Of a DNA stretch of 64,000 nt, positions 18,481-34,361 are shown one piece after another. The position numbers and the translations under genes were made by a program. Every line of letters begins with the position of its first letter. The first letter of the stretch is position 1. The notes under the pieces were generated by a model, which was given only the letters and a program-made list of their open reading frames with translations, had not been told where the DNA came from and made no database searches. Origin of the DNA: Vibrio ishigakensis (GTDB lineage Bacteria; Pseudomonadota; Gammaproteobacteria; Enterobacterales; Vibrionaceae); the NCBI RefSeq assembly GCF_024347675.1, contig NZ_AP024881.1:310001-374000 (forward strand), written 5' to 3'.

Positions 18481-18595
18481 TCTGTGCTTCTCGGAAAGGT
18501 AAATATAAAGTTGCAGAAACGGCTATTTGCAATCAAAAGGTGTGGGAGTAAATTCTGCGTACTCTTTGACCTCTTATTATGGAACAGATTGCAAT

Positions 18596-19447
18596 ATGGC
18601 GGACTCAAATCTAAACCCTTTCGACTCATTTATACCACCTCAAATGGCAGAGCGTGCTGCAGAGGCTGGGGCAAGTAAAGCGAAGAAAAATCAGTTTAAA
18701 TCTTTCCTTTTAGCGCTTACTGCTGGTGTCCACATTGGTATCGCATTCGTGTTCTATACGGTAGTGACTACCGGTAGTGCAGATATGGCCTATGGCATGA
18801 GCAAGCTTGCTGGTGGTCTAGCATTTAGCCTAGGTTTGATCCTTGTGGTTATCACAGGTGGTGAGCTGTTCACCAGTAGCGTACTTACTCTGGTTGCGCG
18901 AGCCAGCGGCCGCATTACCTGGGGTGAGCTTTTCAAGAACTGGGCAGTTGTTTACTTTGGTAACTTCGTTGGTGCTATTACCCTAGTTGGTATTATGATG
19001 GTAACCCGTGAGTACATGAGCGATGCAGGTCAGATGGGCCTCAATGCCATGGCTATCTCTCAGCACAAACTGCACCACACCTTTTGGCAAGCACTCGCTC
19101 TTGGCGTTATGTGTAACCTGCTTGTTTGTCTTGCGGTTTGGATGACTTACAGTGCTCGTTCGCTAACCGATAAGATCCTTGTGCTTATTCTTCCTGTTGC
19201 TATGTTTGTTGCTTCTGGCTTTGAGCACAGTATCGCAAACATGTTCCAAGTGCCTATGGCTATCGCTATCAAGAACTTCGCACCGGCTGAGTTCTGGCAG
19301 ATGACGGGTGCTAACATTGCCAATTACGCAGACCTAAACGTAATGGGCTTTGTGATGAACAACCTTATCCCAGTTACCCTAGGTAATATCATCGGCGGTG
19401 GTGTATTCGTTGGTATGTATTACTGGATGGTTTACCTACGCGACTAA
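18596..19447 (+). CDS. focA: Formate/nitrite-family channel, FocA-like
   Basis: FocA-type proteins are pentameric inner-membrane channels for formate and related anions during fermentation. From MADSNLNPFDSFIPPQMAER the protein has 283 residues, close to E. coli FocA (285). An in-frame codon at 18527 is too far upstream. Six membrane helices are visible, with the family signatures GGELFTSS and FEHSIANMF. The N-terminal NPFDSFIPP is the mobile gate helix region. The gene is not followed by pflB as in E. coli but by a convergent PTS gene. Its terminator hairpin lies inside the last codons of that gene. The upstream region shows no strong FNR box. Confidence 0.88.
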   Translation: MADSNLNPFDSFIPPQMAERAAEAGASKAKKNQFKSFLLALTAGVHIGIAFVFYTVVTTGSADMAYGMSKLAGGLAFSLGLILVVITGGELFTSSVLTLVARASGRITWGELFKNWAVVYFGNFVGAITLVGIMMVTREYMSDAGQMGLNAMAISQHKLHHTFWQALALGVMCNLLVCLAVWMTYSARSLTDKILVLILPVAMFVASGFEHSIANMFQVPMAIAIKNFAPAEFWQMTGANIANYADLNVMGFVMNNLIPVTLGNIIGGGVFVGMYYWMVYLRD

Positions 19448-19466
19448 TCGCAACTCAAGATCAATT

Positions 19467-20786
19467 CTAATATCCGCGCATGGCGCGGATTTTTTTTGCC
19501 CGCTCTTTTTGTTGCTCAAGCAATACCTTCTCGTGTGAGCGGAAGAAGGGTAGGTACATAAAGTAGGAGTTGACCATGGCAAGGACAACCATGAGTCCAT
19601 TGGCAAGGCTGCCGTTTCCGGTCCACATGGCGCCTATCGGGGCAGGTACTGACCAAGGAATAATGCCCAAGGCCCTATCTAGGATTCCAAACTGTGTCAG
19701 ATACCAGGCTAGGGTGGCGTTTAGCATAGGAACTAGCACAAAAGGTATCAGGAACAAGGGGTTAAGTATGATCGGGAAACCAAATAGAATCGGTTCATTA
19801 ATGTTAAACAGTGACGGTACTGCGCCCACTTTTCCCACTGACTTGAGGTGATGGGAGCGACTCTTTATTGCCATATATACCAGTGGCAGGGTAGAGCCCA
19901 CACCACCAATCAATAGAAAGAAATCCCAAAATCCTTGCAGAAAGATATGAGGGAGCACCGCCGCACCTGCCTCATAGGCTTCTTGGTTTTTGAGTAGCAT
20001 CGACATCCAGAACGGATTCATAATACCTGTGACTATCAATGAGCCATGGATACCGATAAACCACAGCAACTGACAGATAAGTATCGCTACAAGTAGTGCT
20101 GGCAAGCTATCAGAGGCCAGAACCAAAGGCGTAAGAAGCTGTTCAATCAACTGCGGGAAATGCAATCCAAAGCGTGCCTCAACCAGTGCATTGAATATCG
20201 AGATGCTTAGCATAACGGCGGTGATCGGTAGGATGAGCTTAAAGCTCTGCTGGGTGAGGATAGGCACCTCTTCCGGCATCTTGATTATCCAGCCTTGCTT
20301 CACAAACAGGCGAATTATCTCAACGGCAAATACCGCACCAATAAGCGCAGTAAAAAGTCCCGCACCACCAAGGTATTCAAAGCCCTCACTGCGATCGCCA
20401 TAGAAGCCGGATAGCAATAGAAAAGCCATAGCACCGGTCAGCCCAGACAGTCGCTCAGGCAGTTGATACTGCTTAGCTAAGCTAGATGCGACCCCGAATG
20501 AGACGATCAGCGCAACCACCCCCAGGGAGAGTTGATACATAGGCAGAATGATTTTGCCAAGGGAGTAGCTGAGGTCTAACCAAGCACTAGCAAAGGCATT
20601 GCTGGCGTGTTTGAACGGTGGAAACAAAATGGGAACGAATAGGCAACCAACGAAGATAAATGGCATAGCTAGCTGAAAGCCATCACGAATGGCAGTCAGA
20701 TGTTTGTTTCGCATCAATACCTTGGCGACAGGCTGAATATATTGCTCGACACTGCTAGCAAGGACTCGAATACGAGATTGATCCAT
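19467..20786 (-). CDS. PTS system EIIC component, cellobiose/diacetylchitobiose type (stand-alone)
   Basis: The 439-residue protein is an EIIC sugar permease of the Lac/CelB class, with about ten membrane helices. The N-terminal NKHLTAIRDGFQLAMPFIFV matches that of the second EIIC encoded at 21487. The central WFIGIHGSLIVTGIMNPFW and FNINEPILFGFPIILNPLF carry the substrate-binding region of the family. No EIIA or EIIB lies beside it on this strand, so it probably uses the EIIA/EIIB of the adjacent divergent operon. It is convergent with focA and divergent from the celABC-like operon. The substrate is likely a beta-glucoside or chitin disaccharide. Confidence 0.88.
   Translation of the reverse strand: MDQSRIRVLASSVEQYIQPVAKVLMRNKHLTAIRDGFQLAMPFIFVGCLFVPILFPPFKHASNAFASAWLDLSYSLGKIILPMYQLSLGVVALIVSFGVASSLAKQYQLPERLSGLTGAMAFLLLSGFYGDRSEGFEYLGGAGLFTALIGAVFAVEIIRLFVKQGWIIKMPEEVPILTQQSFKLILPITAVMLSISIFNALVEARFGLHFPQLIEQLLTPLVLASDSLPALLVAILICQLLWFIGIHGSLIVTGIMNPFWMSMLLKNQEAYEAGAAVLPHIFLQGFWDFFLLIGGVGSTLPLVYMAIKSRSHHLKSVGKVGAVPSLFNINEPILFGFPIILNPLFLIPFVLVPMLNATLAWYLTQFGILDRALGIIPWSVPAPIGAMWTGNGSLANGLMVVLAMVNSYFMYLPFFRSHEKVLLEQQKERAKKIRAMRGY
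19472..19497 (+). terminator. focA terminator, overlapping the end of the EIIC coding region
   Basis: ATCCGCGC-ATG-GCGCGGAT (19472-19490) is followed by seven T. On the minus strand the same bases encode the last residues (AMRGY) of the EIIC protein. Confidence 0.85.
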
Positions 20787-21135
20787 TGTGGGCTACCTAA
20801 TCATGATCTGCTTGGCAGGATACCTAACAATTGGACTCGGCGGAAACTAAGGAAACTAAAAATCACGCCCCGCGCACATTTATGCCGTCAATAGGTCCGT
20901 AAGCCCCTGATTCACCACTGCTAAAACTTATACATCTCCTGTTTCATAGATAAATATCCCCTTACCTATATCGCCTTGTTGACCCTTTTATTTCGGTTCG
21001 ATCACGAATTTTGGCGGATTTTTAAGGATCTCAATGATCCTAATCACACTAGTTATGAAACCATTTGGAAACCGGTTTCCAAATGGTTTCATTTGGGCAA
21101 TATTAAAAAGGTACTTAAACAGGGGATTACCAAAA
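20787..21135. other. Divergent control region between the two PTS transcripts
   Basis: The gap holds the 38-bp palindromic operator at 21055-21092, an imperfect CRP-like site at 21033-21048 (AATGA-TCCTAA-TCACA) and a small inverted repeat GGATC/GATCC at 21026-21040. No reading frame is credible. The frame open from 21034 upstream of the EIIB gene includes the palindrome and lacks a ribosome site. Confidence 0.55.
21055..21092. promoter_or_regulatory. 38-bp perfect palindromic operator of the PTS locus
   Basis: A perfect inverted repeat of two 19-base arms. The centre GGAAACCGGTTTCC (21067-21080) is a canonical LacI-family operator, and each arm ends in an outer GAAACC/GGTTTC half-site. It sits between the divergent EIIC gene and the EIIB-EIIC-bgl-EIIA operon. 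The LacI regulator encoded downstream is the likely ligand. If transcribed, it would also fold into a long hairpin. Confidence 0.75.
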
Positions 21136-21441
21136 ATGAAAAAAATTATGCTTTGCTGCTCAGCTGGAATGTCGACTTCGCTACTGGTTAAAAAAATGGA
21201 AGCGTCTGCTGAGCAACGTGGAATCGAGGCTGAGATCAAGGCCTTTGGTGCAGCTGAATTTAATAACCAAGTGGGCAACTATGAGGTAGTGCTACTGGGC
21301 CCTCAGGTGAAATACATGCAAGCAGATCTGCAGAAGGTTGCCGACAAGCACGGCATCAAGGTTGAGCCAATCAACATGATGGATTACGGCATGCAGAAGG
21401 GCGATAAGGTGTTGGATTTCGCACTAGAACTTATCGATTAA
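21136..21441 (+). CDS. celA: PTS EIIB component, cellobiose type
   Basis: EIIB passes phosphate from EIIA to the incoming sugar. From MKKIMLCCSAGMSTSLLV the protein has 101 residues, the usual size; the phosphorylated cysteine is in the LCCSAGMSTS loop. ATG 21136 is preceded by AGGGGAT. Upstream in-frame codons run through the palindromic operator and are not used. It is the first gene of an operon with EIIC, a 6-phospho-beta-glucosidase and EIIA. Expression should be under LacI-type control at the palindrome. Confidence 0.92.
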   Translation: MKKIMLCCSAGMSTSLLVKKMEASAEQRGIEAEIKAFGAAEFNNQVGNYEVVLLGPQVKYMQADLQKVADKHGIKVEPINMMDYGMQKGDKVLDFALELID

Positions 21442-21486
21442 TCCGCTTTTCACGTGAACAAAAATAGATAACAAACGAGAAAAACA

Positions 21487-22809
21487 ATGAGTGCCCTATA
21501 CGACAAAATGGTCAATGTAATCGAGCAAAAGGTAACCCCGATTGCCGGTAAGATTGGCCAACAAAAATACGTCACCTCTATAAGAGATGGCTTTATCGCA
21601 GCGCTACCCTTCATGATTGTTGGCTCATTCATGTTAGTGTTTATCTTCCCTCCGTTCTCGCCAGATACCACCTGGGGTTTTGCCCAAAACTGGCTGAGTT
21701 TTTCTGAGACCTACCGTGAGCAATTGATGCTACCGTTTAATCTCAGCATGGGGATCATGACCGTATTTATTGCGGTGGGAATTGGCTCCAGTCTAGCAAC
21801 GCACCACAATCTAGACCCTGTGACTACCGGCCTGCTTTCTCTAATGGCGTTCTTGCTGGTAGCAGCACCGCTGCAAGACGGCTCTATCTCGATGCAGTAC
21901 TTCTCGGGTCAAGGCATCTTTACCGCAATTATTTCAGCGATTTACGCAACAGAGGTGTATGCCTTCTTGAAGCGTAATAACGTGACTATCAAGTTACCAC
22001 CTGAGGTTCCAACTGGTGTGGCTCGCTCATTCGAGATCCTGATTCCTGTAATGGCAATCATCTTGACTCTGCACCCACTCAACCTATTCATCGAAGCTAA
22101 GACAGGCATGATCATTCCTGAGGCGATTATGTCTCTAGTACAGCCTTTGGTTGCGGCATCGGATACCTTGCCAGCGGTTCTACTAGCGGTGCTTGTGTGT
22201 CAGATCCTTTGGTTTGCAGGTATCCATGGTGCACTTATCGTGACAGGCATCATGAATCCATTTTGGATGGCGAACCTTTCGGTAAACCAAGCGGCTATGG
22301 CAGCGGGCGAAGCGATTCCACATATCTTTGTACAAGGCTTCTGGGATCACTATCTACTGATTGGTGGCGTAGGCTCGACTCTACCTCTAGCTTTCCTATT
22401 GATGCGTAGCCGTGCAATCCACCTTCGCACTATCGGTAAGATGGGCAGTGTGCCAGCTATCTTCAACATCAATGAGCCAATCCTATTTGGTGCACCGATC
22501 ATCATGAACCCAGTGTTCTTCCTGCCATTCATCTTGATCCCTATGGTCAACGCAACCCTAGCTTGGTTTGCCCTAGACCTAGGCCTAGTAGAACGCGTGG
22601 TATCTCTAACGCCTTGGACAACACCTGGACCTATCGGGGCATCTTGGGCAGCGAACTGGGCATTCAGTCCCGTGATAATGTGCTTCATCTGTATGGCTAT
22701 GTCGGCAATCATGTATCTGCCATTCCTAAAAGCCTATGAAAAACAGTTGCTCGACCAAGAAGCCGCTGAAGAAGAAAAACAAGCTACCTCAGAAGTAGCA
22801 ACTGCTTAA
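21487..22809 (+). CDS. celB: PTS EIIC component, cellobiose type
   Basis: This 440-residue sugar permease is the membrane part of the PTS and has about ten helices. The motifs WFAGIHGALIVTGIMNPFW and FNINEPILFGAPIIMNPVF define the Lac/Cel EIIC family and lie where the sugar binds. It follows EIIB by 45 bases. The stand-alone EIIC at 19467 is a clear paralogue, sharing SIRDGF/AIRDGF and the same central motifs, so the locus has two permeases for one EIIB and one EIIA. The C-terminal tail (LDQEAAEEEKQATSEVATA) is acidic. Confidence 0.92.
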   Translation: MSALYDKMVNVIEQKVTPIAGKIGQQKYVTSIRDGFIAALPFMIVGSFMLVFIFPPFSPDTTWGFAQNWLSFSETYREQLMLPFNLSMGIMTVFIAVGIGSSLATHHNLDPVTTGLLSLMAFLLVAAPLQDGSISMQYFSGQGIFTAIISAIYATEVYAFLKRNNVTIKLPPEVPTGVARSFEILIPVMAIILTLHPLNLFIEAKTGMIIPEAIMSLVQPLVAASDTLPAVLLAVLVCQILWFAGIHGALIVTGIMNPFWMANLSVNQAAMAAGEAIPHIFVQGFWDHYLLIGGVGSTLPLAFLLMRSRAIHLRTIGKMGSVPAIFNINEPILFGAPIIMNPVFFLPFILIPMVNATLAWFALDLGLVERVVSLTPWTTPGPIGASWAANWAFSPVIMCFICMAMSAIMYLPFLKAYEKQLLDQEAAEEEKQATSEVATA

Positions 22810-22830
22810 ACATTATTTCCAAACATAAGT

Positions 22831-22847
22831 GGGCGGCCCCGCCGCCC
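22831..22847 (+). other. GC-rich intercistronic hairpin between EIIC and the glucosidase gene
   Basis: GGGCGGC-CCC-GCCGCCC forms a perfect 7-bp stem with no T run after it, so it is not a classical terminator. It may stabilise the upstream mRNA or lower readthrough into the glucosidase gene. Confidence 0.5.
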
Positions 22848-22865
22848 CAATAAGAGGTTTATTCA

Positions 22866-24248
22866 ATGAACTTTCAATTTCCACAAGGTTTTAGCTGGGG
22901 AAGCGCAGCATCGGCAACACAAACCGAGGGTGAGGCATTTACTCACGGCAAGGGCGATAACATCTGGGACCATTGGTACAAAGACCAACCAAACCGTTTC
23001 CACAATGGAGTATCGGCTACCGAGGCTTCGACCTTCTACAACAACTACAAGGCCGATATCCAACTGATGAAAGATATTGGTCACAGCAGCTTTAGAACCT
23101 CTATCTCTTGGTCTCGCCTTATCCCTCAAGGAACCGGTGAGGTAAATCCAGAGGCGATAGCTTTCTACAACCAGGTTATTGATGAGCTAATTGCTCAAGA
23201 GATTGAGCCGTTTATCTGCCTATTCCACTTCGACATGCCAATGGCGATGCAAGAGATTGGTGGTTTTGAAAACCGTGAGGTAGTGACTGCCTACGCTGAG
23301 TTTGCTGAAACCTGTTTCAAGCTATTCGGTGACCGAGTGAAGAACTGGTTCACTTTTAACGAGCCTATCGTGCCTGTAGAGGGTGGTTACCTATATGACT
23401 TCCACTATCCAAATGTGGTGGACTTTAAGCGTGCCGCAACTGTGGCGTATCACACCATTCTTGCGCACTCTGAAGCGGTAATTCGTTATCGTAGTCTTGA
23501 GCAAGAGGGGCAGATCGGCATCATCTTGAACCTAACGCCATCTTATCCACGCTCGCAAAACCCTGCAGACCTGAAGGCCGCAAACATCTGTGATTTGATG
23601 TTTAACCGTAGCTTCCTAGACCCAGCAGTGAAAGGTGAATACCCAGTAGAGTTGGTAGAACTTCTAAAAGAGCACGGACAACTGCCTGAGACTCAAGAGT
23701 CTGATTGCCAGACTATCGCAGCCGGTAAGGTGGATGTGCTTGGCGTGAACTACTACCAGCCGCGCCGTGTTAAGGCTCGCGAGAATGCGGTACATCCAGA
23801 AGCGCCATTCATGCCAGAGCACTTCTTCGATTCCTACGAGATGCCGGGGCGCAAGATGAACCCGCATCGCGGCTGGGAAATCTACGAGAAGGGTGTGTAT
23901 GACATCTTAACCAACCTGCGCGAGAACTACGGCAACCTGCCTTGCTATATCTCTGAAAACGGTATGGGCGTTGAAGGAGAGGAGAAGTTTCTTGTTGATG
24001 GTCAGATCCAAGATGACTATCGCATCGAGTTCATTCGTGGGCACCTAGAGTGGGTTCACAAGGGCATTCAAGAGGGCTCGAACTGCTTTGGTTATCACCT
24101 ATGGACCTTTATCGATAATTGGTCTTGGTCAAACGCATACAAGAACCGCTACGGCTTCTACCGTCTAGACCTTGAGACGCAACAGCGCTCAGTGAAGAAG
24201 AGCGGTGAGTGGTTTGCAACTGTCTCGAAAGAGAATGGCTTTAACTAA
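22866..24248 (+). CDS. 6-phospho-beta-glucosidase, glycoside hydrolase family 1
   Basis: The cytoplasmic enzyme would split the phosphorylated beta-glucoside taken up by the PTS into glucose 6-phosphate and glucose or an aglycone. The 460 residues carry the GH1 acid/base motif FTFNEPIVP (near residue 163) and the nucleophile motif YISENGMG (near 361). The N-terminal FPQGFSWGSAASATQTEG is the substrate-pocket signature. It is encoded between EIIC and EIIA in one operon. Whether it prefers cellobiose, arbutin/salicin or another 6-phosphoglucoside cannot be read here; I leave the symbol open. Confidence 0.92.
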   Translation: MNFQFPQGFSWGSAASATQTEGEAFTHGKGDNIWDHWYKDQPNRFHNGVSATEASTFYNNYKADIQLMKDIGHSSFRTSISWSRLIPQGTGEVNPEAIAFYNQVIDELIAQEIEPFICLFHFDMPMAMQEIGGFENREVVTAYAEFAETCFKLFGDRVKNWFTFNEPIVPVEGGYLYDFHYPNVVDFKRAATVAYHTILAHSEAVIRYRSLEQEGQIGIILNLTPSYPRSQNPADLKAANICDLMFNRSFLDPAVKGEYPVELVELLKEHGQLPETQESDCQTIAAGKVDVLGVNYYQPRRVKARENAVHPEAPFMPEHFFDSYEMPGRKMNPHRGWEIYEKGVYDILTNLRENYGNLPCYISENGMGVEGEEKFLVDGQIQDDYRIEFIRGHLEWVHKGIQEGSNCFGYHLWTFIDNWSWSNAYKNRYGFYRLDLETQQRSVKKSGEWFATVSKENGFN

Positions 24249-24264
24249 TTCTGGGGGAACAACA

Positions 24265-24579
24265 ATGAGTATTGAACTTGAAGAGCAGGTAATGGGCATC
24301 ATCATTAATGCCGGTGAGTCACGAAGTCTGTGTTATGAGGCGCTTCGTCAGGCCAAGCAAGGCCAGTTTGAAGAAGCAGAGTCGTTAATCAAGGAAGCGC
24401 AAGAGGCTGCTAACCGCGCGCACCTAGTGCAGACCCAATTGATTGAAGCCGATGAGGGCACTGGCAAGACTAAGATGACACTTATCATGGTTCACGCGCA
24501 GGACCACCTTATGACCTCAATGTTAGCCAAGGAGTTGGTGGTTGAGATGATAGAGCTTCACAAACGTGTAGCCGCCTAA
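24265..24579 (+). CDS. celC: PTS EIIA component, Lac/Cel type
   Basis: EIIA of the Lac class takes phosphate from HPr and gives it to EIIB. From MSIELEEQVMGIIINAGESR it has 104 residues, forming a trimeric helical bundle. The phosphorylated histidine is in MVHAQDHLMTSML. The GGGGGAAC ribosome site fits ATG 24265; an upstream in-frame ATG inside the glucosidase gene is not used. It closes the operon and is followed by a strong terminator, with the regulator gene downstream on its own promoter. Confidence 0.93.
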   Translation: MSIELEEQVMGIIINAGESRSLCYEALRQAKQGQFEEAESLIKEAQEAANRAHLVQTQLIEADEGTGKTKMTLIMVHAQDHLMTSMLAKELVVEMIELHKRVAA

Positions 24580-24632
24580 CAACCTCCTGATTAGCCGGAT
24601 GATGATGTAGCTCCCGTCATTCAGCATTTTTT

Positions 24633-24657
24633 GCGGCCTGCTTGAGGCCGCTTTTTT
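24633..24657 (+). terminator. Terminator of the PTS operon
   Basis: GCGGCCT-GCTTG-AGGCCGC (24633-24651) is followed by six T. Confidence 0.92.
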
Positions 24658-24694
24658 ATTTGTGACCTAGATAAGGTACAATGCTGAAATTATA

Positions 24695-24710
24695 TTGAAA
24701 CCGCTTTCCG
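24695..24710. promoter_or_regulatory. LacI-type operator before the regulator gene
   Basis: TTGAAACCGCTTTCCG contains GAAACCGCTTTC, a near-palindrome of the GAAANCGNTTTC type that resembles the centre of the large operator at 21055-21092. It lies 34 bases before the regulator ATG, so autoregulation is likely. Confidence 0.6.
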
Positions 24711-24743
24711 TGACTAAGGAAAGCATGATTGCAAGGATTGTAT

Positions 24744-25703
24744 ATGGCAACCATCACAGACGTATCGTTACTAGCGAACGTATCCAAGGCGACCGTTTCT
24801 CGCGTGATGAGTGGCAGTCGTGGAGTGAAGCCAGAGAGTCGAGATGCGGTGCTGCGTGCTGCAGAGCAGCTTAATTATCGTCCTAATGCAGCGGCGCAAA
24901 CCCTAGCTAACAAGCGTTCTGACTATATCGGCGTAATTCTCTCTTCTACCGATGCTGGGCAGGTCTCTACCTACTTGCCACTATTAGCTAAGGCATTGAA
25001 GAGTCGTGGTAAACATATGTTGGTGCAGTTTGCTGAAACTACACAGGAGCATCAGAGGTTGGTGGATGAGTTATCGCAGCGCCATTGTGATGCCATTATC
25101 TCCGTAGGAGGAAGCTTTGCTTCAGAATCCGACAGTCGTGTGATTGCGGTAGATTCGGTTGCTGAAGATGCAGAGAGTCGAGTCAACTATGACTATGTAT
25201 TTGCTGCCGAAAGCGCGTGTCGCTTCTTGTCGAGCAAAGGACACACCAGTATTGCGGTTGTGCTTGATGATGATGGGTATGCGTCAGAGCAGGTTCTGCA
25301 AGGCTATAAACAAGCACTACAGAATATGGCTATCCCAGTGAATCGTCAGCTTATAGTCACGGCTAACGGCTCTTGTGAGCAGGCAATCATGTCACTACTT
25401 AACAGCTTTAGTCAATTTAGCGCTCTGGTAGTAATGCGCGATAGCCAGGCCGCGATTGCTATGAATCTATTTAGAAGCTTTAACCTTGCAACACCGCAAG
25501 AGGTTTCAATTATCTCTCTTGAGGACTCACAGCTTGCCAGCCAGCTCAACCCACCGTTGACCTGCATCAGCTATCCATCTCAGACTATTATCGACAACGC
25601 AATGCAAAAGCTCGATGCCTGTCTAGATGATAAGGTGGTTGAGAAAACACCACTGATAACAGGTCGCTTGGTTACGCGAGAGTCGGTTATCGACAGAAAT
25701 TAG
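24744..25703 (+). CDS. LacI-family transcriptional regulator of the PTS locus
   Basis: The N-terminal LacI helix-turn-helix reads ATITDVSLLANVSKATVSRV with the hinge AEQLNYRPNAAAQTLA. A periplasmic-binding-protein-like domain follows, binding the inducer. From ATG 24744 the protein has 319 residues; AAGGATTGTAT precedes it. A TTG 15 bases upstream is not preferred. The gene lies directly downstream of the EIIA gene, and operators of its family occur at 21055-21092 and 24695-24710. It is probably a repressor released by the phosphorylated sugar or a derived signal. A bidirectional terminator follows. Confidence 0.9.
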   Translation: MATITDVSLLANVSKATVSRVMSGSRGVKPESRDAVLRAAEQLNYRPNAAAQTLANKRSDYIGVILSSTDAGQVSTYLPLLAKALKSRGKHMLVQFAETTQEHQRLVDELSQRHCDAIISVGGSFASESDSRVIAVDSVAEDAESRVNYDYVFAAESACRFLSSKGHTSIAVVLDDDGYASEQVLQGYKQALQNMAIPVNRQLIVTANGSCEQAIMSLLNSFSQFSALVVMRDSQAAIAMNLFRSFNLATPQEVSIISLEDSQLASQLNPPLTCISYPSQTIIDNAMQKLDACLDDKVVEKTPLITGRLVTRESVIDRN

Positions 25704-25707
25704 AAAC

Positions 25708-25739
25708 ATAGCCCTAGCAACTGCTAGGGCTATTTTTTT
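25708..25739. terminator. Bidirectional terminator between the LacI regulator and GST-like genes
   Basis: ATAGCCCTAGC-AACT-GCTAGGGCTAT is a perfect 11-bp stem followed by seven T on the plus strand. It abuts the stop of the convergent gene. Confidence 0.88.
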
Positions 25740-26448
25740 ATCCGCAACAAGAGGTCGACTTTTCTGTGCAAGATTGCTGACCATGACACTCTTCACCACG
25801 AGCCAGTTTACCTAGATAGGTATCGCCTAGGTAAAAGCGACTGAATACCTCTTCAAAGTCTTCTGGTACGGTCTTGGCTGCCAAGCCCGATTCAACGAGT
25901 GTCTTTTGCCACTGTTGCACCTTTGCAAAACCGTCTAGTAAATCAAAGCCGGAGCGTTTTTTGATAACGTGGGCACGGTGCAGGATAGGAAGCCAAGCTA
26001 TATCGATATTTGATAGCTGTTCACCCTTAAAGTAAGGTCCATCAGCAAGCTGCTTTTCAGCCTTAGCAAAAGACTTAGAAAGGTTTTGCAGTCGCGTTTC
26101 AAAGGTCTGCTTGTCCTTGGCGCTCATGGTGCCACACTGGGGCATGTAATGCTTTGAGGCTTGATACGACCAAGCGCGATCTAGTGCTTTCTGTTCCGGT
26201 GAGACCTGCTCGATAGGTGCGTACTTATCATCTAGGTATTCTACGATGGCATCGGATTCGAACAATACGGTCTTATCTTCAGTGACTAGTACGGGCACTT
26301 GACCGTTTGGTGAGATATCTAGGAACCACTGTGGCTTGTTAGAGAGCTCGATATATTCGATCTCAAACTCAATATTCTTAGCAATGAGAGAGCCCATTAC
26401 ACGCTGTACGAAAGGGCAGTTTTTAAAGCTAATTAATTTGTTCATCAT
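25738..26448 (-). CDS. Glutathione S-transferase-like protein with a Cys-rich tail
   Basis: The 236-residue protein has a thioredoxin-like N-terminal domain of the GST type (ISFKNCPFVQRVMGSLIAKN, then SPNGQVPVLV and the ESDAIVEYLD motif) and an all-helical C-terminal domain. The CPF segment can serve as the catalytic or glutathione-binding region. After the GST core comes a short tail with four cysteines (CHGQQSCTEKSTSCCG). Family members use glutathione in detoxification or reduction. It is encoded 80 bases after a SigZ-like sigma factor gene on the same strand and may be its target. Two adjacent ATGs are possible; the second (26445) is better spaced from GGAG. Confidence 0.8.
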   Translation of the reverse strand: MMNKLISFKNCPFVQRVMGSLIAKNIEFEIEYIELSNKPQWFLDISPNGQVPVLVTEDKTVLFESDAIVEYLDDKYAPIEQVSPEQKALDRAWSYQASKHYMPQCGTMSAKDKQTFETRLQNLSKSFAKAEKQLADGPYFKGEQLSNIDIAWLPILHRAHVIKKRSGFDLLDGFAKVQQWQKTLVESGLAAKTVPEDFEEVFSRFYLGDTYLGKLARGEECHGQQSCTEKSTSCCG

Positions 26449-26528
26449 GACTCCATCGAGTGTTTTTCAATTTACACCCATAAGACGAAGCCATGATGAG
26501 AAAGACGAGATTAATTTAAAACTTTTCT

Positions 26529-27071
26529 CTAACAGCCTGAACAATCAGAGCTTTTTTGTTCGTAGGTCATAATGTTGCCGCGACTATCGATAGAGAAATC
26601 GCAGCATTGTTTGAATAGACCAAGAAGATTCTGACGACTTTTCTGCACCTGAGATTTCAGGGTGGAGTACTTGATGCCTTGCTGCTCCGCATACTCTTTT
26701 TGCGAAACGCCTTGAAGCTCGATAGCCCTTAGTAACGCCGCTTGATTGTCAGGAAGTGCATCGATAAAGGGCATGATGCAATCTGAAAGCTCCCCAATAA
26801 TGCTCTCTTCACTCTCGCCATGCCACAGGTCTTCCTCATCGATATCGTGAGTTTTACCACGCTTGCGGTAGAAATCGATAAGTGTGTTGTTCGCTACCTG
26901 AAACAGCCAAGACTTCATCTTGCTGGCATCTTTGACCGCACTGAGGTTATTGAAAGATTTAATCAGCACCTCTTGTAGTAGATCATCAACGTCATCAGGA
27001 TCGGATACGTTCTTATGCAAAAAGGCCTTAAGGGCACTCTGATATTCTGACCAGACAGCTTCTATCTTCAT
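26529..27071 (-). CDS. sigZ: ECF sigma factor, SigZ-like
   Basis: The roughly 180-residue protein is a group 4 (ECF) sigma factor. Region 2 reads DDLLQEVLIKSFNN with the -10 recognition WLFQVANNTLIDFYRKRG; region 4 is ALLRAIELQGVSQKEYAEQQ followed by GIKYSTLKSQVQKSRQNLLG. The pattern matches E. coli SigZ. No anti-sigma gene lies next to it. The C-terminal extension holds several cysteines (FKQCCDF and SDCSGC), which could act as a redox or metal switch; this is inference. I chose ATG 27071; a TTG at 27089 would add six residues. It lies just upstream of the GST-like gene on the same strand. Confidence 0.78.
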   Translation of the reverse strand: MKIEAVWSEYQSALKAFLHKNVSDPDDVDDLLQEVLIKSFNNLSAVKDASKMKSWLFQVANNTLIDFYRKRGKTHDIDEEDLWHGESEESIIGELSDCIMPFIDALPDNQAALLRAIELQGVSQKEYAEQQGIKYSTLKSQVQKSRQNLLGLFKQCCDFSIDSRGNIMTYEQKSSDCSGC

Positions 27072-27140
27072 CTTGGCTAATAACCTCAATTATATCTTTA
27101 GAGATGGTGGCACCTTAGCTATTTAGATGCAAAAAATTTA

Positions 27141-27587
27141 CTAGGCACTCGCGGTATCTGGACTCATTTGAGTCGGAGCTTTAACCCAGCGACGAACCTT
27201 GGTCAGCCACACTCCATAAGGGGCTCCGAGCACAAACAGGGCTAGGGTTTGAGTAGTCGCCGCTGTAGCAATACTAGGTAAGTCCATGCCAATAATTAAT
27301 AAGATAGCGATATACAGTGGCAACTGAAAGCTGATATAGGCAAGTACATCACCCACAGCCGATATTAGCCAGTTTGGGCCATGGAATGGAATTGCTCTAA
27401 GCACGCTATCGCGATAACGACCGTAAAGTCTGCCGGTTAGGATATTGATCGGCTGACACAGCAATCGAGACATCAGAGACTGCTGAATAGTCATCTGCAC
27501 GATAACCACTTCGATGAACATACCAGTGACAATAGTGAAGCTCATAAGAGCCAGGGTATCAGCCAACCAGATGCGACTAATCTTCAT
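27141..27587 (-). CDS. alaE: L-alanine exporter AlaE
   Basis: AlaE proteins are small inner-membrane exporters that release excess L-alanine. From ATG 27587 the protein has 148 residues, like E. coli AlaE (149). Four membrane helices are predicted. The shared motifs are ADTLALMSFTIVTGMFIEV, SRLLCQPINILTGRLYGRYR and GDVLAYISFQLPLYIAILL. AATAGGT lies before the ATG; a second in-frame start six codons upstream is less likely. It is alone on its strand, with a long untranslated region before it. Confidence 0.9.
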   Translation of the reverse strand: MKISRIWLADTLALMSFTIVTGMFIEVVIVQMTIQQSLMSRLLCQPINILTGRLYGRYRDSVLRAIPFHGPNWLISAVGDVLAYISFQLPLYIAILLIIGMDLPSIATAATTQTLALFVLGAPYGVWLTKVRRWVKAPTQMSPDTASA

Positions 27588-27957
27588 TTTTATACCTATT
27601 TTCAAAAACGCACGAGGAGTAGCACCTTCACTAGCGTGAGGCGCAAAATTTAGAGGGGTGTTTTAGGCTGCAGAGCGCAGCTAGGCGTTAATCGTAGAAA
27701 ACAGAAATGCAGCGACCACCGAACAGAGTCGATGTCACGGAATAATCACTATCTGGATGTGTTTGAGGAAAGCGCCAAGTGTTCACGGGCTTTATGGTTT
27801 TCTAGTCAATAATTGACGCGCATTCTAGGGTAACTATTGGGCGCAGTTCAACAAAAATGTGTTAAAAATTTCAACCTAGAAAATCAGAGTGCTTTGAGCA
27901 GAAAAAAGCCTAACCATTTGCGTGGTCAGGCTTTGTTTTTACGTTAGTTTTGTAGCG
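27588..27957. other. Intergenic region, no gene seen
   Basis: Between the alaE start and the end of the BCCT gene I see only the alaE promoter region and the BCCT terminator (27901-27934). No RNA gene or reading frame with a ribosome site was found. Confidence 0.5.
27901..27934 (-). terminator. Terminator after the BCCT transporter gene
   Basis: On the minus strand AAGCCTGACCA pairs with TGGTTAGGCTT, followed by a T run. Stem of 11 bp with a short loop. Confidence 0.85.
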
Positions 27958-29562
27958 TTAAGACTCAGTCTTAGGAGTTAGAGCTCGATATTCTGATATC
28001 TCGGTTCTAAGACCTTTTATCAGGCTTACACACATGAGTAGCAATACCAATGCAAATGGTAACGCCGTGGCTACCACGCCGGACTGCAGAGCTTGTAGGG
28101 CATCCTTACCACCTACCCAAAGCATTACAGCAGCGATGGCACCACCAATACAGGTCCAGAATACCCTCTGTGGAACAGGAGCATCTATCTTGCCCCCCGC
28201 TGTGATGCTATCAATAACCAACGAACCAGAATCGGCCGAGGTTACAAAGAAAATCAGGATCAGAGCAACCGACAGTATCGACAATACCGAGCTAAACGGC
28301 ATTGCATCGTATACATGGAATAGGGTGAGTGAGATATCGGTCAGCCCATTTGCACCCAGTAGGCCGATTTTGTTCGCTACTTGGTCGATGGCGATGCCAC
28401 CAAATACTGACATCCACACCAGAGTTACCGCGGTTGGGATAACAATGACTGCAATAAGGAACTCTCGTACTGTGCGGCCTTTAGAGATGCGAGCGATAAA
28501 CATACCCACGAATGGTGACCAAGAGATCCACCATGCCCAATAGAATACGGTCCAAGCATGCATCCAAACGCTGTCTTCACGACCGTGAGGGTTGCTAAGC
28601 TCTACAAAGTTACTTGCGTATCCTTCGATGGTGTACCACAAAGATGACAGCACGGTATCTTTGCCAACAAAGATGACAAAAACCAATAGTGCAAATGCTG
28701 CCAACATATTGATATTGCTCAGTATTTTCACGCCTCCATTGATACCGCGCATTACAGATAAAGAGGCGATAAAGGTTACTAAGGAAATAACAATCAACTG
28801 GGTTCCAATACCACCATTTAAGCCAAACACGTGGTTAAACCCGCTGGTGGCTTGCTGAGCGCCCAGGCCTAGTGATGTTGCCAGTCCAAATAGGGTCGCT
28901 AATACAGCGAGAATATCGATCACGTGCCCCATCCAACCCCAGGCTCTATCACCAAAGATAGGGTAGAAGGTAGAGCGGATTGAAAGTGGAAGTCCCTTGT
29001 TGTAGGTAAAGAATGCCAGTGAAAGAGCGACGATGGCATAGATGCTCCAGCCGTGCAGCCCCCAGTGGAATATGGTCGCGCCTAGAGCCATCGATTTGGC
29101 TTCTTCACTATAGGCAGTAACGTTTAACGGAGTTCCGTACCAATCAGTAAAGTAGGCGACGGGTTCAGCTACACCCCAGAATAGCAACCCTATACCCATT
29201 CCAGCAGCAAACAGCATAGCTATCCAAGATAAGGTGCTGTGTTCAGACTTTGCTTCTTTGCCACCAATACGAATCTTGCCCAGCGGTGAGGCTATAAGTA
29301 TCAGTGCAAATAGAAGGAAGAAATTGGTTGCCCACATAAAAAAGGAATCAAACTGATTGATGATGCCGTTTTTGAGAGCGTTGAGTGAGTTAAGGGCGGT
29401 TGTTGGTCCAACCAAGAGAAGACTTACGAGGGTTACTATGATGAGAACTGCGCTAGTTCCGAATACGGGGTTATGTATGTCAAAGCCCCACTTTTGAATA
29501 TTGTCCTGACCCACCTCATAGTCGGTGGTTTCTATACTGTACTTTTTATTAGTATCATCCAT
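27958..29562 (-). CDS. BCCT-family betaine/choline/carnitine transporter
   Basis: The 534-residue protein has about 12 membrane helices and imports compatible solutes with Na+ or H+. The core motifs are FAAGMGIGLLFWGVAEPVAYF, a second glycine-rich helix, and WTVFYWAWWISWSPFVGMFI in the substrate region. The IARISKGRTVREFL segment is the family signature. Such transporters protect marine bacteria from high salt. I cannot separate betaine, choline or carnitine specificity by eye. It lies next to the restriction island, whose left repeat begins about 190 bases upstream of this start. Confidence 0.92.
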   Translation of the reverse strand: MDDTNKKYSIETTDYEVGQDNIQKWGFDIHNPVFGTSAVLIIVTLVSLLLVGPTTALNSLNALKNGIINQFDSFFMWATNFFLLFALILIASPLGKIRIGGKEAKSEHSTLSWIAMLFAAGMGIGLLFWGVAEPVAYFTDWYGTPLNVTAYSEEAKSMALGATIFHWGLHGWSIYAIVALSLAFFTYNKGLPLSIRSTFYPIFGDRAWGWMGHVIDILAVLATLFGLATSLGLGAQQATSGFNHVFGLNGGIGTQLIVISLVTFIASLSVMRGINGGVKILSNINMLAAFALLVFVIFVGKDTVLSSLWYTIEGYASNFVELSNPHGREDSVWMHAWTVFYWAWWISWSPFVGMFIARISKGRTVREFLIAVIVIPTAVTLVWMSVFGGIAIDQVANKIGLLGANGLTDISLTLFHVYDAMPFSSVLSILSVALILIFFVTSADSGSLVIDSITAGGKIDAPVPQRVFWTCIGGAIAAVMLWVGGKDALQALQSGVVATALPFALVLLLMCVSLIKGLRTEISEYRALTPKTES

Positions 29563-29730
29563 AAATTCTTAAAATCACGTCGCGTGCCTAGGACTTCATC
29601 ACTAGAGAAATACGACAAAACCGTCCTCCGTTTAGGTTGCGCAGGAAATTCTGCGCGCAAATTTTAACATTTGGTCACCTAGTGTTCAAATTTGTATGAT
29701 GAATGAGCAACGGCAGACATATGGACATAA

Positions 29731-29762
29731 AAAAAGCCTGACGAATTTCTTCATCAGGCTTT
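29731..29762 (-). terminator. Terminator hairpin at the left end of the restriction island
   Basis: On the minus strand AAAGCCTGA pairs with TCAGGCTTT and a T run follows. It parallels the hairpin behind the intact tRNA gene (32243-32277) and ends the methyltransferase transcript. Confidence 0.85.
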
Positions 29763-29793
29763 CTAGAATAAGGTGGCCTCTAGCAGACTTGAA
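29755..29793 (-). repeat. Left direct repeat: truncated tRNA-Ile 3' end plus terminator arm
   Basis: These 39 bases match 32270-32308 at 35 positions. The copy holds the last 23 bases of a tRNA-Ile 3' end, including the CCA region in altered form, and the start of its terminator arm. The rest of the tRNA is missing, so this looks like an att site left by integration, or the stub of a duplicated tRNA gene. Confidence 0.8.
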
Positions 29794-29802
29794 TTATCTT
29801 AG

Positions 29803-30879
29803 TTACAAAGTTGCCAGAAAGTCCTCATCATATTTAGGGTCAATGTATTCATAAGGTATACCTGCAAAGGTTTTAGCTAGAGCCACAAATATATGCTCTA
29901 CACCAGCTGGTGGAACAGCCATTCCAATTTGCTTTCTTATGCTTTCTTTGCTGCCTTCGAAAAAATAGGAATCAGGGAAGGTTTGAATGCGAGCCCTTTC
30001 TCTATTAGTCAAGGCTCTTGGTTCTGACCAGTGATATCCGTGAGTGCCACCACCACCGCTTCCAGTCACAGTATATGAAGGTTTCTCTGGATGAAGCCTT
30101 CTATAAATCTGGCTCATTCTAGCTCCCTTTACATTCAACTGTAGATGTTCAGGAATACCTTCGTACCATGCATTTTCACCCGGCGGTATATGTTTTAGCC
30201 TTTCTACAACCGTAGCAGATTGACGAGTTAGCTCGTGGTGTGTTGCTGTTGGTGGAATATCACTCAGTGCTTCTTTGGCGGTCACATAGTCTTCTGGATT
30301 TGGAGTGATAGCTTTAGGTACTCTAAACTCAAGACCTAAATCATTTCTGATACCCACAATAATAAAACGATGCCTTTTTTGAGGAACGCCATACTCTTCA
30401 AACTTATATAAGTGGACGCTTAGCTTATAGCCGACTTCACCTGCATTTTGAAGCGCATTAAGTATAGTTTTGAAGGCTTTACCTTCATTTGCACTTTGTA
30501 GCCCCCCTACGTTCTCTGCTAAGAACCACTTTGGATTCTTCGCGTTTATCGCTTTCACACCATAGCTGTAAAGGGGACCAAATTTACCATCAGTCCCTTT
30601 CTTTTCCCCTACCTGAGAAAAGTCATTGCAGGGAAAACCAAAACTAAGACCGTCAAAACCTTCAAGATTGTCAAAATCAAGCTCTTGAACTGGGGCGCAA
30701 TATACTTTTGATTCATCGCCATTGTGAATGTTGCGGGCATAAGTTTTACAGGTTGAGGCATCAATGTCATTTGCCCATACAGGCTGAAACTCAATGCCTT
30801 CGACTTTACATGATGCGTTTTTTGCCCCTAGAGCTAGCCCTCCTGGGCCACAAAAAATCTCTGCAAATTTAAATATCAT
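29803..30879 (-). CDS. DNA cytosine-5 methyltransferase of the restriction island
   Basis: This modification enzyme would protect host DNA by methylating cytosine at carbon 5. Motif I is FAEIFCGPGGLALG, motif IV carries the catalytic Cys in GFPCNDFSQVG, motif VI is ENVGG, and motif VIII is QKRHRFIIVG. A target-recognition region follows, then motifs IX-X near MSQIYRRLHPEKPSYTVTGS. The start at 30879 (MIFKFAEIF) is preceded by AGAGAG; an ATG at 30903 has no clear ribosome site. It lies 112 bases after the endonuclease gene on the same strand, possibly with its own promoter. The pairing with an NgoFVII-like nuclease suggests a similar short GC-rich site, unproven. Confidence 0.9.
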   Translation of the reverse strand: MIFKFAEIFCGPGGLALGAKNASCKVEGIEFQPVWANDIDASTCKTYARNIHNGDESKVYCAPVQELDFDNLEGFDGLSFGFPCNDFSQVGEKKGTDGKFGPLYSYGVKAINAKNPKWFLAENVGGLQSANEGKAFKTILNALQNAGEVGYKLSVHLYKFEEYGVPQKRHRFIIVGIRNDLGLEFRVPKAITPNPEDYVTAKEALSDIPPTATHHELTRQSATVVERLKHIPPGENAWYEGIPEHLQLNVKGARMSQIYRRLHPEKPSYTVTGSGGGGTHGYHWSEPRALTNRERARIQTFPDSYFFEGSKESIRKQIGMAVPPAGVEHIFVALAKTFAGIPYEYIDPKYDEDFLATL

Positions 30880-30991
30880 ATCTTTACTCTCTAGGTCCAA
30901 CATTCAGCCGGCTATATTAACTTTTCTTTGCTGATTTCTCTAGCAAGCAGGTAGGAAAAAACATTCAAATAGAACATTGATAAATATTTAC

Positions 30992-32065
30992 TTAAAACTC
31001 TAGAAAGTACTCTCCGTTTGCAAATTTGTGGAACGTAATCGATGTTTTTCCATACTGTTCTAAAGTGTCAGAGGTAATCCTATCACCGTACTTGAGTAGC
31101 CCTGCATCCTCTAGCTTACCCTTGAGTAACTTTCCTAAAGTTGCTCGTCCACCGGAATCATCATGCGAGGCAATATTTTTGCCGAAATCTGCTGATACGA
31201 CCATTTTTATCTTAAAGTACTTTCCATTTCGCTCAAAGTAGGCGGTAAACGTTCCATTTCTTGAATTACTGGTCGGTGATGTAGGGTTTGGCGTTGTAGG
31301 TGGATAGAAAGAATTTTGAGTATCTGACTTTTGGACTCCAAGTTCCACTTCGTACCAAGGTCTTGGTTGGTATGTATTGGTGCTTCTATTCAACCTTCCC
31401 TTTGCAAAGAATAAGTTAAGGCCTGAATTTGGCTGCGCATCTACTCTAAGTTCGATTTCTAGCTTGCCAATAGCTTGATTTACTGATGGGAAAGAATTTC
31501 TCAGTACTTCATAGTTGCTAATGTCCATATCTGCTTGTTGTGAGAGAGAAGATATGGTTGATTTAGACTTCTGTGTTAGGTCAACTTGATTTAGCCTTTT
31601 GGTAGTGTTCATGGAAAAGAGATCATCAATATATTTGTCTGTTTCATTTATGATATTTTGATCTTCAATTTTTGCCATGCACTCAAGTCTGTCACTGAAA
31701 CCCTGAGTAGAAAAGTTAGATGACCCGATGTAAAGAGTGTTTTCTATCCCATTGGAAATGCGGTAGATCTTGCCGTGATACTCTTTCATCGAAATAAAGA
31801 CACCGCTCTCAGGGTTTTTGTTTTTGAGTGCATCATCAAGTTTAGTGAGTGAGTCTAGCTGTTGTTTGTTGAGTCCTTTATGAAAAACCATTCCAATTAG
31901 GACTCTACATATTTCTTGTTCTGCGACTTTTGTAAGAGTGGGGGTTAACTCCGAAACTAGGGAATGTCCCATGTAACCACTTGCAATGTGAATACTCTTT
32001 GCTTGATTAGCTTTCTGTGTAAATTCTGTTTTAAATTTTTCGCTTGAACGATTGGTATATAGCAC
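30992..32065 (-). CDS. PLD-type restriction endonuclease, NgoFVII-like
   Basis: The N-terminal half has a phospholipase-D-like nuclease fold. The HKD-type motif is YHGKIYRI (His97, Lys99) with GSSNFSTQGF (Asn117) after it; such metal-independent nucleases act as dimers. The C-terminal half (about residues 220-357, with PWYEVELG) resembles the DNA-binding domain of the NgoFVII family. The start is GTG at 32065, with AGGAGATC before it. It is encoded upstream of the methyltransferase, the nuclease-first order that needs controlled expression. No controller (C) protein gene is present. Its identification rests on fold pattern and partnership. Confidence 0.82.
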   Translation of the reverse strand: MLYTNRSSEKFKTEFTQKANQAKSIHIASGYMGHSLVSELTPTLTKVAEQEICRVLIGMVFHKGLNKQQLDSLTKLDDALKNKNPESGVFISMKEYHGKIYRISNGIENTLYIGSSNFSTQGFSDRLECMAKIEDQNIINETDKYIDDLFSMNTTKRLNQVDLTQKSKSTISSLSQQADMDISNYEVLRNSFPSVNQAIGKLEIELRVDAQPNSGLNLFFAKGRLNRSTNTYQPRPWYEVELGVQKSDTQNSFYPPTTPNPTSPTSNSRNGTFTAYFERNGKYFKIKMVVSADFGKNIASHDDSGGRATLGKLLKGKLEDAGLLKYGDRITSDTLEQYGKTSITFHKFANGEYFLEF

Positions 32066-32242
32066 TAATTTGATCTCCTAAACATACCGACCTACCTACA
32101 TTAATAATTGCGGTAAAAAGAGTACATAGTTTTCATGGGTAATTGGATTTTCTGTGATTTGGGTTCTCGGTGCTTCATTGATGAAAGCGAGAAATGAAGT
32201 TCTAGAGGTGGTAAATATTCGTTACACAGAGAGCAGAAAAGC

Positions 32243-32277
32243 AAAAAGCCTGAGAAGCAATAATGCTCTCAGGCTTT
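32243..32277 (-). terminator. Terminator after tRNA-Ile
   Basis: On the minus strand AAAGCCTGAG pairs with CTCAGGCTTT around a loop that itself can pair (AGCA/TGCT); a T run follows. It is the natural terminator of the tRNA gene. Confidence 0.85.
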
Positions 32278-32308
32278 CTAGAGTATGGTGGCCCCTCGCA
32301 GACTTGAA
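32270..32308 (-). repeat. Right direct repeat: end of the intact tRNA plus terminator arm
   Basis: This 39-base block is the counterpart of 29755-29793 (four mismatches). It spans the T-arm/acceptor end of the tRNA and the first terminator arm. Confidence 0.8.
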
Positions 32309-32361
32309 CTGCGGACCAATCGATTATGAGTCGACTGCTCTAACCACTGAGCTAAGGGGCC
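32286..32361 (-). tRNA. ileX: tRNA-Ile, CAU anticodon (lysidine type)
   Basis: The 76-nucleotide cloverleaf starts GGCCCCTTAGCTCAGTGG and ends GGGGCCACCA with the CCA encoded. The anticodon loop ACTCATAATC gives CAU. The acceptor stem and body match the E. coli ileX/ileY type, in which C34 is changed to lysidine and AUA is read as Ile; a plain Met tRNA is excluded by the acceptor and D-arm sequences. It lies upstream of the restriction island and next to rpoD, as ileX does in E. coli. Confidence 0.95.
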
Positions 32362-32469
32362 GTGTAGGTTGAAGATTATATGAGATGCTCGGGGGAGTGT
32401 CTAGGGAACACCTCGACCAATCTACTGATTTGCGTATGGTTTTTAAGCGATTGAACAGACTAAAAACAA

Positions 32470-32495
32470 AAAAGGTGAGCCTAGGCTCACCTTTT
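32470..32495 (-). terminator. Terminator of rpoD
   Basis: AAAAGGTGAGC-CTAG-GCTCACCTTTT is a perfect 26-bp palindrome 19 bases after the rpoD stop. Confidence 0.9.
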
Positions 32496-32513
32496 ACGCT
32501 TACAGGTCTAGCT

Positions 32514-34361
32514 TTACTCGTCTAGGAAGCTGCGCAGGGTTTCTGAGCGGCTTGGGTGACGCAGTTTACGTAGAGCCTTAGCTTCGATCTGACGGATACG
32601 CTCACGAGTAACGTCGAACTGCTTACCAACTTCTTCTAGGGTGTGGTCAGTGTTCATGTCGATACCAAAGCGCATACGAAGTACTTTAGCTTCACGAGGA
32701 GTTAGGCCAGCAAGAACGTCTTTAGTTGCAAACTTCAGGCTAGTAGAAGTTGCAGAGTCTAGAGGCAGTTCTAGAGTGGTATCCTCGATAAAGTCACCTA
32801 GATGCGAATCTTCATCGTCACCGATTGGTGTCTCCATTGAGATTGGCTCTTTAGCGATCTTCAGTACTTTACGGATCTTGTCTTCTGGCATCTGCATGCG
32901 CTCAGCCAGTTCTTCCGGTAGTGGCTCACGACCCATCTCTTGTAGCATTTGACGAGAGATACGGTTTAGCTTGTTGATAGTCTCGATCATGTGCACTGGG
33001 ATACGGATTGTACGTGCTTGGTCAGCAATCGAACGAGTGATTGCCTGACGGATCCACCAAGTTGCGTAAGTCGAGAACTTGTAACCACGACGGTATTCAA
33101 ACTTATCAACCGCTTTCATTAGACCAATGTTACCTTCCTGGATAAGGTCAAGGAACTGTAGGCCACGGTTGGTATATTTCTTCGCGATAGAGATTACAAG
33201 ACGTAGGTTCGCCTCTACCATCTCTTTCTTCGCGCGGCGAGCTTTCGCTTCACCGATAGACATGCGACGGCTGATGTCTTTGATAGATTGAACCGTTAGT
33301 GACGTCTCTTCTTCAATCGCTTTTAGCTTTTGAATTGAGCGGCGGATGTCTTCTTCGTTACGACGGATCTTCTCTTTGTAAGCCACGTCTGAAGACAGAG
33401 CTTGGTCTACCCAAGCTTCACTTGATTCGTTGCCAGTAAATAGCTTAACGAAATCTTTTTTCGGCATGCCACCGTATTCAACGGTTTGACGCATGATCAG
33501 ACGCTCTTGAGTACGAACGCGCTCCATAGAGGTGCGTAGTTCGTTAACCAAATGGTCGAACTGCTTAGGAGTTAGGCGAAACTCGCGGAATACGTCCAGA
33601 ACCTTATCAGTAGCTACGCGATATGCATCGCTACCACGGCCTTCAGAGTTAACAACTAGCTGCAGGTCTTGATAGGTGTTACGAAGTTCAGTGAATTTCT
33701 CCAGAGCAAGCTCAGGGTCGATACCTGTATCTTCCTCTTCCTCACTCTCTTCGTCAGAATCGTCGTCTTCGCCATCTTCATCTTTAAGGTCAGTTTCAGC
33801 AAGCTCAGAACCAACGTGGGTCGCTGTAGGCGCTGTAGTTTCTTCATCGTCAGGATCAACGAAACCAGCGATAACGTCGGTTAGACGTAATTCTTCAGCT
33901 TGGACCTTGTCGAACTGCTCAAGGATGTATGGGATAGTACCAGGAAATTCTGCAACAGAAGCCTGTACTTGGTTGATACCGTCTTCAATGCGTTTAGCAA
34001 TGTCGATCTCGCCTTCACGAGTAAGAAGCTCAACGGTACCCATTTCACGCATGTACATGCGCACTGGGTCTGTAGTACGACCAATCTCACTTTCTACGCT
34101 ACTAAGAGCAGCAACCGCAGCTTCTGCAGCTTCTTCATCGACTTCAGTGGTGGTTTCATCGATGGTGTCGTCATCAATTTCTGTAGCGTTTTCAACTACT
34201 TTGATGCCCATGTCGTTGATCATCTGGATGATGTCTTCGACCTGCTCTGAGTCAACGATTTCAGGTGGCAAGTGATCGTTTACTTCAGCGTAAGTTAGAT
34301 AGCCCTGTTCTTTACCTTTAAGAACTAGTGCTTTAAGCTGTGACTGCCTATTTTGATCCAT
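32514..34361 (-). CDS. rpoD: RNA polymerase primary sigma factor sigma-70
   Basis: RpoD directs RNA polymerase to housekeeping promoters. The 615 residues have region 1.1 (N-terminal 80), an acidic spacer ([18 protein letters not shown]) in the non-conserved region, region 2 with [20 protein letters not shown], region 3, and region 4 with [20 protein letters not shown] and the -35 helix [18 protein letters not shown]. Length and motifs match Vibrio and E. coli. It is the last gene of the rpsU-yqeY-dnaG-rpoD series and has a perfect palindromic terminator. Confidence 0.98.

Follow-up and report, generated by a model that had tools for sequence, protein, structure and literature searches.

How does a restriction-modification pair come to lie between two copies of a tRNA 3' end with no integrase beside it? 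We addressed this question for a 64,000-nucleotide stretch of the Vibrio ishigakensis genome (contig NZ_AP024881.1), called the window below and used for all coordinates. The original prediction was that the pair had arrived by integration at a tRNA gene, either as a minimal cassette moved in trans or within an element that has since decayed. We compared the repeats, terminators and genes of the locus with those at the same site in related genomes, and conclude that 29754-32308 is probably a decayed and now immobile island remnant at tRNA-Ile2(CAU).

The repeated tRNA end and its two terminators

Read on the minus strand, the locus runs from rpoD through tRNA-Ile2(CAU), a terminator, the nuclease gene, the methyltransferase gene, a tRNA stub and a second terminator to a betaine transporter gene (Table 1). 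We take the 615-aa ORF to be rpoD from its sequence; a literature search for VC0517, presumably also rpoD, gave no paper. The two copies of the 40-nt repeat agree at 36 of 40 positions (90%, recounted); three of the four differences fall within the tRNA and the fourth in the trailer. The top score in 60 first-order Markov versions of the window was 26/40, the best match outside the tRNA in the window itself reaches 36/40, and only two places in the whole 4.79-Mb genome match the repeat sequence, the left one with E = 6.7e-9. These controls and the genome-wide uniqueness rule out a chance origin, and the repeat predicted at the tRNA 3' end is real.

Table 1. Features of the locus in window coordinates
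Feature	Position	Strand	Basis
tRNA-proximal terminator hairpin, CCTGAGAGC..GCTTCTCAGG type	32243..32277	-	sequence
Distal terminator hairpin, CCTGATGAAG..TTCGTCAGG type; putative former tRNA terminator of the host	29730..29762	-	sequence
Intact tRNA-Ile2(CAU), putative integration target; 3' half probably supplied by the element	32286..32361	-	ARAGORN, Rfam, E. coli matches
Right (proximal) repeat copy, tRNA 3' end and 17 nt of trailer	32269..32308	-	repeat search
Left (distal) repeat copy	29754..29793	-	repeat search
Displaced 23-nt stub of the tRNA 3' end, agreeing with the tRNA at 20 of 23 positions; putative distal att site, outer half	29771..29793	-	alignment
NgoFVII-type PLD nuclease, a type II restriction endonuclease of 357 aa with a GTG start	30992..32065	-	Pfam PF09565 and PF20731
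C-5 cytosine (m5C) DNA methyltransferase, 366 aa	29803..30903	-	Pfam PF00145

The right copy belongs, as proposed, to an intact tRNA gene, recognised by Rfam as a tRNA and called tRNA-Met(cat) by ARAGORN; the best 3 of 6000 E. coli matches are annotated tRNA-Ile (87-88% identity), which supports the name tRNA-Ile2(CAU). The left copy is the degraded stub, ending nine bases from the methyltransferase stop codon. A tandem pair of tRNA-Ile2 genes, the second of which decayed in place, would also leave a stub followed by a complete terminator, as seen here. However, the 53 nt preceding the stub agree with the tRNA at only 10 of 53 positions and encode the C-terminus of the methyltransferase, which disfavours a decayed second full tRNA unless a deletion took its 5' part alone. 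We find this reading hardly credible, in line with the original view of the stub.

The two terminators are of different types. The proximal trailer resembles that of another Vibrio tRNA-Ile2 locus (G190, L055; 87% over 76 nt), and the stub with the distal trailer resembles two others (G116, L202, 88% over 67 nt; G221, L100, 86% over 64 nt). As the terminators differ and each is like the trailer of another Vibrio tRNA-Ile2 gene, they point to integration rather than duplication in place. This bears on another origin, in which the restriction-modification pair was inserted with a long target duplication. A bare pair framed by a direct repeat is compatible with such an origin, and insertions with long, variable target duplications have been described for restriction-modification systems (PMC3031569). 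However, both copies would then derive from one target, and their terminators differ; a 40-bp duplication would leave the proximal terminator without its second half, and that hairpin is complete in the window; and the proximal trailer matches other tRNA-Ile2 loci over up to 76 nt. We consider this origin very improbable.

The unlike terminators are expected if the element supplies one and the host retains the other. Many other islands likewise have a distal terminator unlike the proximal one, although the two are alike in some (G229, G208). The native terminator is not assignable to one of the two window types, since a relative with a single tRNA end (G109) bears the proximal type. In five genomes (G105, G220, G029, G125 and G088; loci L199, L123, L193, L203 and L194), the T-stem of the intact tRNA is unlike that of the displaced copy, so that elements seem to replace part of the functional tRNA gene by their own version.

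In the other islands the repeat spans ~45 nt, usually from the anticodon loop to the CCA end; the exceptions are an altered third copy in G063 and the copies of G178 and G018. The left copy in the window holds only the outer 23 nt, and the two att sites are therefore not both intact. The two repeat copies had been read as an att footprint, which stands in that both hold the tRNA 3' end and falls short in the left one. The four mismatches had been taken as a sign that the event is not recent. The three in the tRNA part likely reflect decay, whereas the one in the trailer may predate integration, because the two copies would stem from different parents.

A rare, low-G+C type II pair

The nuclease matches both Pfam NgoFVII domain models, N- and C-terminal, and a DNA methyltransferase gene is its neighbour; PADLOC assigns the two to a type II nuclease and a type II methyltransferase. 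Residues H97, K99 and G114-S115-S116-N117 of the nuclease, which we take to be the catalytic HxK and GSSN residues, are invariant across 25 aligned sequences, and matches between the methyltransferase and its relatives extend to residue 363 of 366. The predicted identity of the two genes holds, and the pair may still be an active restriction-modification system of type II. In the window the nuclease gene precedes the methyltransferase gene and shares its strand, whereas in the related NgoFVII-type loci the methyltransferase gene is first in 47 of 52 and the two genes diverge in 4 of 52, with a window-like order in L143.

The pair stands out from its surroundings. The two genes have a G+C content of 38.7% and 42.1%, the lowest two values among the 35 window ORFs longer than 700 bases (mean 47.6, sd 2.2). 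Counting the host, the nuclease is present in 2 of the 227 genomes of the genus and in 9 of the 394 genomes of the order; the other genus copy is 35% identical. Querying genome contigs with the single nuclease found no relative, and an alignment (profile) query found 47 loci. A methyltransferase accompanies the nuclease in 52 of the 57 relative loci scanned, a set that includes duplicates of some places (e.g. L064 and L155). Searches of viral contigs (2 distant loci), plasmids (16 records, each below 60% identity) and phages (1 match, 22% identity) turned up no mobile element that carries a close relative of the pair.

A relative of the pair does occur inside an integrase-bearing segment elsewhere. 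In a gammaproteobacterial locus (L145, 1665-9373), two tRNA-Pro(GGG) genes, alike at 70 of 77 positions, flank an integrase frame together with a nuclease and a methyltransferase 42% and 58% identical to those of the window. By analogy, this locus can serve as a picture of a complete carrier. An integrase frame is present in 7 of the 57 relative loci, one of the frames being short.

The rpoD/tRNA-Ile2 site in other Vibrio genomes

VP0404 is described as the gene adjoining the hotspot tRNA in V. parahaemolyticus, and the published VP0404 primers match window rpoD exactly at 32831-32847 and with 3 mismatches at 34193-34212; the window site is therefore the published 'tRNA-Met' hotspot. Islands described at this hotspot are VPaI-1 of V. 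parahaemolyticus (24 kb), VVI-I of V. vulnificus (43 kb) and VSP-II of V. cholerae (27 kb) (PMC1464126, PMC3974666), with which the window element shares the site but not the size (2.5 kb). An integrase is reported for VPaI-1 (PMC1464126) and for VSP-II (PMC12409362), whereas none was found in the window element. Type I restriction genes are described on VPaI-1 (PMC1464126), in contrast to the type II pair of the window, and type I restriction genes at a tRNA-Met have also been reported for a variant of VSP-II (PMC2889950). The predicted footprint of integration at the tRNA is borne out by the unlike terminators and the known hotspot.

Across the genus, the exact 23-nt tRNA end is present in 202 of 227 genomes and occurs at least twice in 36 of 227, a count made by eye on exact matches that misses degraded stubs such as that of the window and includes copies on different contigs. 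We retained 27 first segments adjoining an intact tRNA, leaving out two genomes with a copy broken near the anticodon loop and weak profile matches (G178, G018), six whose copies are on different contigs or whose stretch as read lacks an intact tRNA (G168, G122, G192, G101, G019, G249) and one with copies 36 kb apart (G010). A Pfam PF00589 integrase lies in 25 of these 27 segments (5 and 20 in two checks); the remaining two are those of G105 and G093, discussed below. The next copy of the tRNA end is direct in 22 of 27 and inverted in five (G074, G096, G113, G233, G250). Likewise, among 25 relative loci examined the tRNA is present in 22, one of which (L111) has only 2.4 kb of downstream DNA; a second tRNA end follows 6-13 kb downstream in 5 of these 22, and all five hold an integrase inside. 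The integrase adjoins the distal copy in G008, G243, G007 and G220, where the window has no room for it, and the tRNA in G088, G125 and G152, where the window has fewer than 200 bases; it is mid-island in G229.

The site frames other cargo in other genomes, as expected from the original prediction. Among the island ORFs, part of which were covered by the identification, are an Mrr-type nuclease and a deaminase matching the PADLOC dCTPase (G008), a thymidylate synthase family protein (G007), a phage replication protein A (G243) and DUF4297-HerA (G063, second segment).

An unusual feature is the presence of att copies in inverted orientation. Successive copies of the tRNA-Ile2 3' half point in alternate directions, their head-to-head ends often sharing inner flanks, at eleven loci (L192, L196, L197, L200, L201, L207, L224, L225, L232, L233, L237) in eight genomes (G074, G096, G113, G168, G192, G208, G233, G250), and integrases of the G229 type (88-90%) occur in G074, G096 and G113.

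Four genomes (G109, G124, G235, G015) show a single tRNA end in the 19-20 kb read, as the proposed search for empty sites had anticipated, and the pair is missing from related genomes. Note that the betaine transporter failed to mark the ancestral junction: in the genomes most closely related by that gene it lies elsewhere, and in G090, G109, G124 and G235 it is 0.4-0.5 Mb from the tRNA. As the left flank is not common to these four relatives, none of them forms an exact before-and-after pair with the window. Homology on the betaine transporter side begins ~60 bases past the distal terminator. Window 19447-29670, lying between the tRNA and the gene at 18527-19447, has a content unlike that of G109, G124 and G235; its G+C is host-like and the betaine transporter is elsewhere in relatives. 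The stretch is a rearranged one.

Possible loss of an integrase or movement in trans

No integrase was found with the pair, as originally noted. A home-made profile, built from 5 hotspot integrases and the longest open frame from each of 12 host regions, detected no integrase frame in 28001-32500; since its frames had not been individually checked, 20 integrase frames were confirmed with Pfam. The host genome has 14 PF00589 matches, none inside the window, and the window holds no trace of a lost integrase. With five of the hotspot integrases as queries, no close relative appeared among these 14 matches, the best long match being 26% over 387 residues.

In the history that we favour, a tyrosine-integrase element would have entered the 3' half of tRNA-Ile2(CAU), beside rpoD. 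With a crossover near the anticodon loop, the element would have supplied the tRNA with a new 3' half and terminator, and the former end and terminator would have been displaced to the far side. A later deletion would have removed the integrase together with the inner half of the far att site, where the crossover took place, bringing the nuclease-methyltransferase pair to nine bases from the stub, which would then have drifted. Such an element should no longer excise via its own att sites.

A less likely history, to which we still give some weight, is that of a cargo-only cassette, devoid of an integrase of its own and put into the tRNA in trans by the integrase of another element. The 7.1-kb segment at tRNA-Ile2 in G093 (L195, 470-6985), with the full repeat at both ends, speaks for it: no PF00589 match falls inside among the 11 of 13 matches listed, and its four ORFs give none either. 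The proteins encoded include an m5C methyltransferase, a HEF_HK/HATPase protein, a response-receiver protein and a small one that PADLOC matches weakly (PDC-M01B, PtuB), and the segment may serve in defence. Segments that follow a first one point the same way. We examined twelve (one each in G063, G074, G113, G227 and G250, two each in G208 and G233, three in G096), and 10 of the 12 have no integrase match among the matches listed; the two with an integrase are one in G096 and one in G208. The integrase-less ones have direct copies in G063, G227 and G233 and inverted copies otherwise, where two segments may be one element. For G093, G105 and the further segments, PF00589 matches were listed down to about E = 3e-5. 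The case of G093 and of the integrase-less further segments means that a missing integrase need not reflect a loss. Against movement in trans, on the other hand, stand the integrases in 25 of 27 first segments, the window's distal core without its crossover half, and the absence of a close hotspot-integrase relative among the 14 host matches. The original prediction had left the choice open between the two histories; decay fits somewhat better, the trans cassette less well.

A relaxed stub scan (threshold 14 of 19 positions, with one chance-like match in the window at 27105) detected in G090 a degraded stub that lies 8.6 kb from the tRNA, matches at 15 of the 19 positions scored and is followed by a tRNA-type trailer. 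None of the 13 PF00589 matches of this genome lies between tRNA and stub, and G090 offers a parallel decayed case. The first segment of G105, where the integrase is unclear and its gene in pieces, is no evidence for a stage with a broken integrase, as runs of unread bases lie within the gene.

The favoured remnant resembles in part a CIME, described as a cis-mobilizable element that has lost its integration and transfer genes and kept attL and attR (PMC5704250). The likeness lies in tRNA-associated cargo that retains traces of the att site on either side, no integrase having been found; the window differs in that its distal att site is an outer half only and that no sign of an ICE or IME parent is seen, none of the genes of such a parent remaining in the window. 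Overall, the window island is probably a small, decayed member of a known island class at a known hotspot. A broader proposal, that the rpoD/tRNA-Ile2 site exchanges integrase-less cargo cassettes, often for defence, moved in trans by integrases of other elements at that site, is one of which G093, the window and the later segments in G063, G227 and G233 would be examples, decayed to different degrees; it is a proposal we advance tentatively and think unlikely.

The probable remnant suggests how a defence pair can stay fixed in the chromosome once its carrier decays. In several genomes the tRNA 3' half and terminator of the element are unlike those displaced, which would explain the variation of the trailer between species. 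The rpoD/tRNA-Ile2 site allows a comparison between Vibrio species of complete elements, segments devoid of an integrase, decayed stubs and loci with one tRNA end.
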